Made by a program: the position numbers and the translations under genes
The notes under the pieces: model-generated
The model's input: the letters and a program-made list of their open reading frames with translations, nothing else
The model's database searches: none
What the model was told of the DNA's origin: nothing
Assembly (NCBI GenBank): GCA_947482665.1
Contig: CANKJK010000006.1
Location: 62,001-126,000, forward strand
Length of the DNA: 64,000 bases
Direction of reading: 5' to 3'
Origin: Acidobacteriota bacterium
Lineage (GTDB): Bacteria; Acidobacteriota; Vicinamibacteria; Vicinamibacterales; UBA2999
In this document: positions 8,926 through 29,700 of the stretch, piece by piece
Numbering within the stretch: position 1 is the first letter of the stretch
Layout: every line of letters begins with the position of its first letter

Positions 8926-9381
8926 TCACGCGCAGGCAACAGTCCAGGCGCGGTCCAGCCGGCCGGCCGCGTGCGGCCGCTCGAGCAGCAACCGCACCGT
9001 CGCCAGCAGGAGCGAGCCCGAGCAGGGTTTGCCCAGCACAACATCGCAACCGGATCGCTCCGCCGCGACTCTCGCCTCAGGACTTGGATCCCCGGTCACC
9101 AGCACAATCGGGACGTAACGGGTGGCGTGGTCGGCCCGGAGGCGCTCGCACAGTTCGAAGCCGTTCATCACCGGCATGGTGATGTCGGCCACTACGACAT
9201 CCGGCACCGCCGTACGCGCCACATCCAGCGCACCCTGGCCGTCCCCCGCAGTGTAGACCTCAAAGCCTGACGCCTCGAGAAAGCGGGCGTGCAGTTCCTG
9301 GATGTCGGGACAATCGTCCACCACCAGCACGTTGCACTTCCCACGGGTACGCCTGCGCACTTCCGGTGTCATGGTGCTCAT
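8926..9381 (-). CDS. Single-domain response regulator
   Basis: This 151-residue protein consists of a receiver domain and short tails. The acidic pair is D22-D23, the phospho-acceptor is D66 in VVVADITMPVMNG, the switch threonine is T96 and the conserved lysine is K118. There is no output domain, so it should act by protein contact or as a phosphate relay, like CheY or Spo0F. No histidine kinase is adjacent. The closest is the truncated LytS-type kinase at 10077-11195, which belongs to a class that pairs with LytTR regulators instead. The C-terminal 25 residues are Arg- and Leu-rich. Confidence 0.93.
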   Translation of the reverse strand: MSTMTPEVRRRTRGKCNVLVVDDCPDIQELHARFLEASGFEVYTAGDGQGALDVARTAVPDVVVADITMPVMNGFELCERLRADHATRYVPIVLVTGDPSPEARVAAERSGCDVVLGKPCSGSLLLATVRLLLERPHAAGRLDRAWTVACA

Positions 9382-9600: not shown

Positions 9601-10080
9601 ATGGCAATCACCACCCCGCACACGCGCAGCAGTCGCCTCCGCCTTCTTGGTGTCGTATCCCTGCTGACACTCGCAGCCGCGGCTCAGGCGCAACAGGCGG
9701 TGACGCTCCTGCCGTCGTTGACGCTCTCGACCACCAGCGACTCCAACGTGCTCTCGTCGAATCGGGCGCCTCAGCCGGACGTCGTCGAACGCGTCACCCC
9801 GGGCCTGCGCATCAATGGCCGCTCGCGGCTCTGGACGCTGGCCGCAGGCTTTACCGTCGACGCGGAGCGTTACGAGCGCCACCCCGAGCTGAATGACACG
9901 CTCTCCCGTCAGCTGGCCGACGGACTCTTCATCCGGACGGGACGCACCGTCACCTTCCGGGCGACGGCTCTCTATCTGGCCACGAACGCCCCGCAGGAAA
10001 TCAACCTGCAGACAGGCCCCTCGCTCAGCGTGGCCCGCGGCCCGGCCACCGAGTTGGCGGCCACTCCCTCGATCGTCGCC
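9601..10080 (+). pseudogene. Outer-membrane beta-barrel protein, 3' end lost
   Basis: The gene starts well, with GGAGG five bases before the ATG and a signal peptide cut after AAAAQAQ. The next 130 residues show alternating beta-strands with aromatic ends, such as LTLSTTSDSNVLSSN and LWTLAAGFTVDAERY, as in outer-membrane barrels of about 380 residues. After residue 160 or so (about base 10080) the frame no longer looks like a barrel. It reads antisense to a histidine-kinase gene and stops at 10212. The frame after the break is Pro/Ser/Arg-rich. I read this as a gene cut by a rearrangement. The intact function was probably an envelope pore or a polysaccharide-related barrel. Confidence 0.72.
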
Positions 10081-10085
10081 CGTGT
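10062..10085. other. Rearrangement or assembly junction cutting two genes
   Basis: The plus-strand barrel gene and the minus-strand LytS-type kinase gene both lose family-like sequence inside this interval, tail to tail. A single break that removed the 3' ends of both explains it. No insertion sequence or target duplication is visible at the point. Confidence 0.7.
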
Positions 10086-11195
10086 ATTCGCAAGCCCGAC
10101 GCCGCTGGTCGCCTTCGCGAGGCTGCCTTCATCCGCGCCATCGCCGCTGTCGCCGACTGTCACACGGAGCCGGCCCCCCTGCCGGACGGCCTCCACACGC
10201 ACCCAGCCCTGACGGCTGTGCGGCGCCACGCCGTGCCGGATCGCGTTCTCCACGAGCGGCTGCAGCAACAGGCTCGGCACGTCGGCGCTGATCGCCTCGT
10301 CGTCGATGCGGAGTTCGACCTGGAGCCGCGCGCCGAGGCGCGTCTGCTCAATCTCGAGGTAACTCCGCAGCGTCTCCAGCTCGGTCTCCAGCGGCACGAC
10401 GGGACGATCTCCCGCGCGCAGCGTCAGCCGCAGCAGTCCGCCCAGCTGCTCAATCATCCGGTCGGCCGCTGAGGCATTGGTGCGGATCAGCGCCGCAATC
10501 GTGTTGAGCGTATTGAACAGGAAGTGCGGGTGGAGCTGCCGCTGCAGCGCCTGCAGCCGCGCCTCCACGAGCCGCGTTTCGAGCTGCGCGGAAGCGAGCG
10601 CATGCCGCTCGGACTGCCCGCGGTAGGTGAGAGCATGGGCGAGGCCCACCAGGAACAGGTAGGTCATCAACAGCCAGTCAAACTGCCGCACGTATTCGTT
10701 CGAGGTGAACCACCAGAACCCGCGGGCCATGCCGGCGTGGCCCGACAGGTAGCCCAGCGCCACCCGGCCCGCACCCATGGCGGCGGTATGCGTGACGCCG
10801 TACACGATGACACCGACCGCATGGACCAGCGCCTGCTGCCAGACCGGCGTCGTGTCGAGCGAGAAGCGGCGCGCCAGGCGCATCACGACCGGCGCCAGCA
10901 GCGCCGGCACATACCAGTACCAGACGTTCAGCAGGGCCATGTGGAGCCATCCAACCCAGTCCTCGTGGGCCATGGCTCCACGGTCGAGAAACGCGGCCTG
11001 GAGCGTCGACGAGACACCGAAGACAGTGGCGACCAGAAAGAGCGTCCGGCGGGACACGGCGGGCGGCGCGACGGCCTGCTGCACCTGAGCACTATCGGGT
11101 GAATGCGCCGTGGGCGCAAGCGGGGGATCAGGGGCTGGCCGCCATTCGTCACAGCTCTCCGGCCGTTCGTCCCAGGAAACTGCGGGCACGGTCAC
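10077..11195 (-). pseudogene. LytS-type sensor histidine kinase, 3' end lost
   Basis: From the N-terminus there are about four or five membrane helices (residues 50-190), a short coiled coil, and a His_kinase domain with LHPHFLFNTLN (phospho-acceptor H222). The ATPase domain follows, with N-box LVENAIRHG and G1 box DSGDG. The G2 box GVGLANTRA ends at about base 10077. A normal kinase of this class has 25 to 35 more residues forming the last strands. Here the frame continues with unrelated residues and stops at 9972, antisense to the barrel gene. The usual downstream LytTR response regulator is absent. The ATP lid is largely intact, but the missing final strands probably destroy activity. The start is a GTG 45 bases from the divergent protease gene. 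Confidence 0.78.
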
Positions 11196-15169: not shown

Positions 15170-15688
15170 GTGGCTCACCACTTCCGGCACGCGTTGATTC
15201 TGGGCGGCCTGCTCATGTGCGGCCTCGCCTCCGGCGTCCTGGCAGGCTGCAGTTCGACCCACAGCCCCACCTCGCCTTCCGCCACGGCCTCGCCGTCGCC
15301 GAGTCCGAGTCCGAGCCCAACACCCACGCCGACGCCGAGCCCGACACCGAGTCCGACGCCGTCCCCAACGCCGTCCCCAACGCCGAGTCCGACGCCGACG
15401 CCCACTCCGACGCCAACGCCTGCCCCGGTCACCACGGTCACCTTGAGTGGGTTCGTGCGCAATGCCTCGGATGGCAAGGTCGTTGAGAACGCGCTGGTGG
15501 AAGTCACTACCGGCGCGAGCGCCGGCCGCGGCGTGCGCAGTGACGCCGCTGGCGCCTATCGGCTGGAAGGCCTGGCTCGCGGGTCGGCACGCCTCCAGGT
15601 CACCGCGACGGGCTTCAGCTCGGACGGCGCAACGCTCGACCTCGCGGCCGACACCGTCTTCACCTTCCAGATCAGGCCGGCGAGCTAG
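15170..15688 (+). CDS. Proline-rich lipoprotein with carboxypeptidase-regulatory domain
   Basis: The GTG start gives a signal peptide with a lipobox (LAGC, Cys at about 27). A stretch of roughly 45 residues made almost only of SP and TP dipeptides follows, then a carboxypeptidase regulatory-like domain ([23 protein letters not shown] to the end). The SP/TP region should be an extended spacer that carries the folded domain away from the membrane, possibly across peptidoglycan. Length is 172 residues. It follows the decarboxylase by nine bases, but no functional link is evident. The repeat region could change length by slippage. Confidence 0.8.
15296..15425. repeat. Degenerate hexamer repeat encoding SP/TP dipeptides
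   Basis: About 20 imperfect copies of a six-base unit (ccgagt, ccgacg, ccaacg and similar) encode the Ser/Thr-Pro linker of the lipoprotein. The units differ mostly at third positions and at the Ser/Thr choice, so length variation stays in frame. Confidence 0.85.
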
Positions 15689-26630: not shown

Positions 26631-29624
26631 CTAGAAGTCCACCTGCAGGCCGAACTTCAGCATCCGGCCACCGAGAATCTGCGTCGGCCGCAGCCACGCG
26701 GAGCCGGCAGACGCCCGCGTCCCGTAGGTGTTGTTCCACAGGATCACGGTGTTCTTGTTGAAGAGGTTGTAGAGGTCGATCATCCCCTTGATTTTCGTGC
26801 TCCTGGCCTTGAAGGTCCGGGAGAAGCGGGCATCGATCTGATTCACCCGATCGCCGAACACCGAGTTCGGACGAATCAGCGGCACCGTGGCGGTCGCATT
26901 CGCACCAGCCGCGAGATTCCGGCCGAGCGAGGCGGCGATATCCGCACCGGTCGCCACGAAGTTCGCCAGGATCTGCTGTCCGGGAATGCTCTGGAACGTC
27001 GCCGCCGCGGAGATCCCGTAGGGCAACTGGTAGGAGCCGAGCAGCTTCACCTGCGTCAGCATCGGCGACTGCTGCTTGCAGTGATTGCCGCCGAGGACGC
27101 CCCCGATACCCGCGACGCCGGCTTCCGGCACCTTCGCGAACACCTCGCAGTTGTCCAGCAGGCTCTTGCCGGAGCTGACGCCACCCTGCAGCACGGCCTT
27201 CGCCAGCCGGACGTTGAGGCTCAGGTCGAAGCCGTTCCACTTCTCGAGCTGCTTGCCGTAGTTCTTGGCACTCGTGCCGAGCTGCTGCAGGCGGCCCAGG
27301 CTCCCGGGATTCAGATCGAGCAATCCGCAGATCTGCTTGCCCGAGACATCGCCCGGCAGGCGCGCGTCGGTCGGCGCCGTGACGCAGAACGAGTCGTAGT
27401 TGCTGGCAGCCACCAGCGTGTTGTCGACGACCGTCAGGTCACCGAACGTGCGGCGGAAGTAGGCGAAGTTCGCCGAGACGCGCGGCATGAGCTCGCGCTG
27501 CACACCGGCGGTCATCTCCCAGTTGTACGGACGCACGTTGTAGCCCGAGATCATCTTCGGGTCGTAGGAGAAGGTCGTCCGGGGCTGACCCCACAGCGCG
27601 TTCGGGCTCGGCCCAATCTCGCCGTTGGCGGCCGCGATGGTCGGGTCGCCCTGTGGGAGGAAGTCGCCGTTGGTGTCCGTCCACTGCCGGGTCAGACCGC
27701 CGCCGGCCGTCGACGTCGGGTCGACCGTCCGCGTCAGGTCGAGCGCTTCCTGCACGACGTAGCGCGACGCGCTGACCTTGACGGCCGTCTTGCCGTCGCC
27801 GGTCACATCCCACGACCAGCCGAGGCGGGGCGAGAGCGACTTCCAGCTCACGACGTCAGCGCCGGCGAATGAGCGCGCCGGGAGGTACGTGGTCTTCTGC
27901 ATATTGACGTCGGCGTACTTGGTCCCGATCCCGTCGTAGCGCAGGCCGTAGTTGAACGTCATGCGCGAGATCTGCCACTGGTCCTGGGCATACAGCGCCG
28001 TCTTCATCATCGAGTCGTGGTACGAGTACGGCGTCGGCAGGAAGTTCACCTGGTTCGGAACGCCGTTCAGCAGGTTCACTTCGTAGTCCGACGGCGCCGA
28101 GACGTTGTTCTTCAGATCACCCGTCTGCACCTGACCGCCGAACTTGAAGTTGTGCGAACCGGTCACATACGACACCGCACCGCGGTACACGTTGTTCAGG
28201 CCCACCTCGTGCACGTCGGCCTGCGGCGCGATGCCGCCGGCGCCGAACGCGGGCGCCCCGAAGCGCTGGCCGGTGGACAGCTCAAGCTTGGTGGGCGCCT
28301 GGGCGATGTCCTTGGTGATCTGCGCGCGCGGGATGCGGGTGACCGACATGCCGGCGTCAAACAGGAGCCGGTTGGTGACCGGTGCGGACCAGGTCCCCTG
28401 ATAGATGGAGGACTTGTAGGTCTGGACGTAGGTGGCCTCGGTCGACGACAGGGAACCGCCGCCGGCGTTGCCCTCCCACTTGCTGTTGTAGTCGTAGAAG
28501 AAGGACAGCCGGTTCTTGCTCGATGCCTGCCACGTCAACCGGTTGGCACTATCTTTCGTGACCTGATCCGAAACGGGACGGAAGCTCAGGTCAGGCACGA
28601 ACTTGAATGGGTTGGCGCTGATGTTCTTGCTACGGACGGACTGCTCCGTGTAGGTCACGCTCCGCTTGTCGCGGTAGGCCACGAAGAACCAGACCTTGTC
28701 CTTCTTGAGCGGCCCCCCCAGAGTCGGGTTCAGATCCGAGATTGTCTTGATCGGCAGCGGCGCCGTCACGCCCTTCGCCTTCAGGCCGTCGTCGTAGTTG
28801 TTGGCCTGCGTGCTCTCGTTGGCGAAGTTCGTGAACACGTTGCCCGAGAACTTGTTGCCGCCCTGCTTCGGGATCAGGTTCGCGATGATGCCGCCCGACT
28901 CGACTTCCGCGGAGTGTCCGCTGACGCCGAGCACGGTCTGGTCGACCGTGCCGTCACCGAGAGAGGCGGGCGTGATCGAACCGCCGAAGAACGTCATGAA
29001 CGCGACGGACATGCCGTCCACGAACGTCTGCTGGTCGTTCCGGCGCGCGCCGTGGATGGACATGCCCTGGAAGTTGTCGCCGCCGGTGCCGCCGACGTCC
29101 TGCGCCGCGCCCGTGCTCGTCTGCGCGACGACCACGCCCGGCACGAGGGCCGCCAGATTGACGAGGGCCTTGGCCGTCGGAATGGCGTCGAGCACCTCGC
29201 GTGTCAGCACGCGCTGCTCACGGACGTTCTGCACGTCCACGATCGGGCTCAGCCCGGAGACGACGACCGTCTCTTCGAGGCTGCCGACCTTCAGGTCCGC
29301 GTTCACGGTCGCGGTGAAGCCGCCAACCAGGCTCACGCCCTCGCGCTTCGACGTCGAAAAGCCCGTCAGCGAGAACGTCACCGTGTAGTCGCCCGGCCGG
29401 AGGTCAACGACCTTGTACTGGCCCGAGCCATCGGTCACGACCGTGCGCACCTTTTCGATGAGCGCGGGGCTGCTGGCTTCCACCGTCACGCCGGGCAGCG
29501 CGCCGCCCGTCGCATCCTTTACCGTGCCGGCAATCGTGCCGGTCTGCGTTTGTGCCTGCGCCACGCCGGCACAGAGCGCCAGCCCGACAGTCAGCGCCAC
29601 CCACTGCGACCATTTCCCTTGCAT
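26631..29624 (-). CDS. TonB-dependent receptor with carboxypeptidase-regulatory N-terminus (Oar-like)
   Basis: The protein is about 997 residues, with a signal peptide ending at VAQAQ. A carboxypeptidase regulatory-like domain follows (about residues 25-105: IAGTVKDATGGALPGVTV), then a plug domain (VSGLSPIVDVQNVREQRV to about 330) and a long barrel. GGGAGG five bases before the ATG at 29624 favours that start over 29657. Oar-like receptors import or display large ligands using TonB energy, though no TonB or ExbBD gene is in the window. It is divergent from a secreted protein, and the 157-base gap contains a 13-base C run. The last residues (LKFGLQVDF) end in Phe as barrels do. Confidence 0.93.
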   Translation of the reverse strand: MQGKWSQWVALTVGLALCAGVAQAQTQTGTIAGTVKDATGGALPGVTVEASSPALIEKVRTVVTDGSGQYKVVDLRPGDYTVTFSLTGFSTSKREGVSLVGGFTATVNADLKVGSLEETVVVSGLSPIVDVQNVREQRVLTREVLDAIPTAKALVNLAALVPGVVVAQTSTGAAQDVGGTGGDNFQGMSIHGARRNDQQTFVDGMSVAFMTFFGGSITPASLGDGTVDQTVLGVSGHSAEVESGGIIANLIPKQGGNKFSGNVFTNFANESTQANNYDDGLKAKGVTAPLPIKTISDLNPTLGGPLKKDKVWFFVAYRDKRSVTYTEQSVRSKNISANPFKFVPDLSFRPVSDQVTKDSANRLTWQASSKNRLSFFYDYNSKWEGNAGGGSLSSTEATYVQTYKSSIYQGTWSAPVTNRLLFDAGMSVTRIPRAQITKDIAQAPTKLELSTGQRFGAPAFGAGGIAPQADVHEVGLNNVYRGAVSYVTGSHNFKFGGQVQTGDLKNNVSAPSDYEVNLLNGVPNQVNFLPTPYSYHDSMMKTALYAQDQWQISRMTFNYGLRYDGIGTKYADVNMQKTTYLPARSFAGADVVSWKSLSPRLGWSWDVTGDGKTAVKVSASRYVVQEALDLTRTVDPTSTAGGGLTRQWTDTNGDFLPQGDPTIAAANGEIGPSPNALWGQPRTTFSYDPKMISGYNVRPYNWEMTAGVQRELMPRVSANFAYFRRTFGDLTVVDNTLVAASNYDSFCVTAPTDARLPGDVSGKQICGLLDLNPGSLGRLQQLGTSAKNYGKQLEKWNGFDLSLNVRLAKAVLQGGVSSGKSLLDNCEVFAKVPEAGVAGIGGVLGGNHCKQQSPMLTQVKLLGSYQLPYGISAAATFQSIPGQQILANFVATGADIAASLGRNLAAGANATATVPLIRPNSVFGDRVNQIDARFSRTFKARSTKIKGMIDLYNLFNKNTVILWNNTYGTRASAGSAWLRPTQILGGRMLKFGLQVDF

Positions 29625-29700
29625 AAATCCTCCCGGTCTCACATCGACCGCGTACAAACCGGCTCACAGCATGGGAGCCGAACTGGGCGATTTTACCTCG

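Follow-up and report, generated by a model that had tools for sequence, protein, structure and literature searches.

A tail-to-tail junction truncating an outer-membrane barrel gene and a LytS-type kinase gene in an Acidobacteriota genome, best read as a deletion

In the 64,000-nucleotide window analysed here (C6:62001-126000, on contig C6 of G000, the genome under study), a barrel frame on the plus strand (9601-10212) and a LytS-type kinase frame on the minus strand (11195-9972) overlap tail to tail. Are these two genes with natural ends, or the two sides of a break? The original prediction held that both lose family sequence at one place and that the LytTR partner expected beside the kinase is gone, all three facts being explained by a deletion, with an assembly join as the alternative giving the same picture. 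On sequence comparison, a deletion appears to be the best-supported reading of the junction and we consider it likely.

Results

The plus-strand gene retains the N-terminal ~158 residues of a TIGR03016/BBP2_2-like outer-membrane barrel (9601-10074), as judged from family matches, relatives and per-residue scoring. This part has an intact frame and a coding-like third-position GC (0.84), and it resembles the TIGR03016/BBP2_2-like protein of XrtA-type exopolysaccharide loci, with identities of up to 46% (G109, across residues 17-158) and 35% to G025. The profile matches themselves are weak, 30.3 bits for TIGR03016 (curated cut-off, 90.85) and 14.6 bits for BBP2_2 (cut-off, 23.7), and the full-length G025 relative is also under the TIGR03016 cut-off (52.3 bits). 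The window gene differs from its relatives in what follows: the last family signal is at I158 (10072-10074), possibly R161/V162 (10081-10086), and the tail of the frame (10087-10212) runs antisense to the ATPase domain of the kinase and holds no family sequence, whereas all relatives compared (12/12) are full length and continue for ~225-240 residues beyond the end of the window barrel at ~158-162. A profile of this missing half found nothing across G000 (best E 0.52); in six genomes used as positive controls, four of them outside the profile, it gave E values of 1.9e-23 to 2.9e-95. The truncated barrel gene is adjoined at 8926-9381 (-) by a stand-alone receiver-domain response regulator, which has no output domain and is not a LytTR protein.

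The minus-strand gene is cut in a comparable way. It retains a His_kinase domain (PF06580, 90 bits for a cut-off of 25.2) and HATPase_c through the G2 box GVGLANTRA (10077-11195), as seen with Pfam, alignment and per-residue scoring, but HATPase_c is matched only at profile positions 9-85 of 111. Similarity to family-level relatives is strong through the G2 box and then gone. Past this box the relatives carry a conserved LYG..HRFEF...GGL.V.I.IP stretch, which we take to form the final helix and strands of HATPase_c; it is absent from the window kinase, where it is replaced by antisense barrel sequence (9972-10067, the final ~34 residues, by alignment and per-residue scoring). The last kinase family signal is at A373 (10077-10079), possibly E376 (10068-10070), and the ATPase domain is complete in 14/14 aligned family-level relatives. 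Because the frame, at 407 aa, is as long as several of these relatives (406-408 aa), the loss is visible by sequence and not by length. The usual total length of the frame could speak for two working convergent genes with natural ends at the junction; this reading has a negligible probability, given that the tails carry no family sequence and that the missing part is present in every relative examined. Relatives ending at the same residues, which the original prediction had named as an observation that would count against it, were searched for among these sequences and none does.

By per-residue family scoring, the ends of the barrel and kinase signals meet or overlap inside 10068-10086, essentially the shared truncation point first proposed (10062-10085), and past the junction each frame is only the antisense of the opposite gene. 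The two signals overlap by ~10-19 bp, up to ~19 bp fitting either gene, an interval compatible with a short sequence shared by both parent sites. A genome search for a repeat at the junction found none, and the junction sequence has no second copy anywhere in the genome with up to 3 mismatches allowed.

A LytTR gene lies directly downstream of the kinase in 14/14 family-level relatives examined, and nearly all wider relatives with contig room also carry one in this position; beside the window kinase there is none. The assembly encodes only two LytTR genes (C6:218602 and C10:130105), each paired with another kinase, and a search across it for an orphan, unpaired LytTR gene returned nothing, so that the predicted absence of the partner is borne out for the whole assembly. 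The window kinase thus resembles LytS/LytTR systems (PF06580 + HATPase_c kinase, PF04397 regulator) in its His_kinase domain and its ATPase boxes to G2, and differs from them in that the end of its ATPase domain is cut off and its regulator gene is missing. An inversion or translocation that carried the lost segments to another place in the genome would likewise cut both genes at a single point, but the assembly holds neither an orphan LytTR nor a barrel C-terminus and shows no flip in GC skew; such a rearrangement is largely refuted within the assembled 97.5% and we regard it as very improbable. As a separate observation, in 10 family loci (L115, L116 and L118-L125) the kinase-LytTR pair converges, within ~1-7 kb, on a gene for an Oar-like CarboxypepD_reg outer-membrane protein, a relative of window 26634-29663; this arrangement is missing in the window genome.

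On the barrel side, relatives suggest that more was lost than the three items of the original prediction (barrel 3' end, LytTR gene and kinase 3' end). The next gene after the barrel in at least 6 relatives encodes a polysaccharide export protein, all from one clade (54-72% protein identity between the four that were compared); the gene after that codes, in G109, G025 and G035, for an XrtA-type chain-length determinant. The window barrel has no adjacent export gene, and the nearest export proteins of G000 are 38-44% and about 30% identical and lie at other loci (C3 and C10), the 38-44% counterpart in a locus of different gene order. The partner chain-length determinant likewise scores 1e-70 to 1e-99 in relatives vs 8e-33 in G000, a value that resembles general Wzc-type paralogues; only general or divergent paralogues were found. 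Since the export partners also have no close counterpart in G000, the lost stretch probably measures at least several kb, and the predicted content of the deletion, which stands for its three items, would probably have to be extended by the export genes. XrtA is here a label by similarity only, because a search for an exosortase in G000 and two relatives found none.

We rejected the idea that the C3 export locus is the barrel's partner, moved to another site: the identity of its export protein reaches just 38-44%, its genes stand in reversed order, and the neighbouring product has hardly any resemblance to the barrel. This locus is a second polysaccharide locus (L109:10591-12701), reversed in order relative to the relatives' barrel-export loci, with a TIGR03027-like export protein and then a 429-aa protein whose match to the barrel profile is very weak (E 0.7).

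Could the junction be a product of assembly? A false join, in which the organism does have the segment between barrel and kinase but assembly passed over it or it went unbinned, both genes being really intact, would give a local picture identical to that of a deletion. The assembly is a draft (3.53 Mb, 38 contigs, 97.5% complete), so that with ~2.5% expected to be missing, the lost piece could be merely unassembled; both remaining frames are also undecayed, as they would be had no change occurred in the cell. On the other side, contig C6 has no N, its GC skew keeps a negative sign along the whole 251 kb, composition is continuous over the junction, a usual cause of misjoins is absent given that the junction has no repeat, and the missing parts are on no other contig. 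By tetranucleotide distance the junction does not stand out at 20 or 40 kb, and at 10 kb it ranks 14/116, within the upper eighth. A chimera with foreign DNA, or one driven by a repeat, is disfavoured by the absence of N, the skew, the composition and the uniqueness of the junction; the same evidence does not speak against a join that skipped unassembled sequence. The assembly alternative raised at the outset thus keeps a lower probability than a deletion, and we judge it unlikely while giving it real weight.

Discussion

In the deletion that we favour, supported by both truncations and by the failure to find the lost sequence anywhere else in the assembly, a single event in the lineage would have joined the interior of the barrel gene (left) to the interior of the LytS-type kinase gene (right), possibly through a short shared sequence. 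It would have removed the last ~225-240 barrel codons, the LytTR response-regulator gene, the last ~30-50 kinase codons and, probably, the polysaccharide-export genes that come after the barrel in relatives. We infer that this was one event in a living cell, that the lost piece had the size suggested above, and that both proteins lost function. The deletion is probably recent, because neither remaining frame has decayed. No relative with barrel and kinase in one neighbourhood was found in a synteny search, and because no relative found carries both neighbourhoods, the ancestral gene order is itself inferred.

A deletion of this type is an ordinary kind of event. In Salmonella, verified spontaneous deletions carry microhomology of at least about 8 bp at their junctions, a feature that told true deletions from ligation chimeras (PMC3411829). 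The window junction is similar to such illegitimate recombination at short shared sequences, with two unrelated sites joined and intervening DNA lost (PMC3411829), and its interval leaves room for a short shared sequence.

If the deletion is true, one two-component system and probably an exopolysaccharide locus are gone from this bacterium. Given that G000 (3.53 Mb) is smaller than most well-assembled relatives, it is conceivable, though we hold it doubtful, that the deletion has reached fixation in the lineage, shutting down an entire exopolysaccharide export locus and the neighbouring sensor system at once, in the course of genome reduction. For annotation, two annotated genes are remnants, one of which, the kinase frame of normal length, could pass as intact, and the junction is a clean site at which to test the truth of the assembly. 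Elsewhere in the window, the open frame at 15175-15507 (-), which contains a low-complexity GVGVGVGVG run, is probably no gene.
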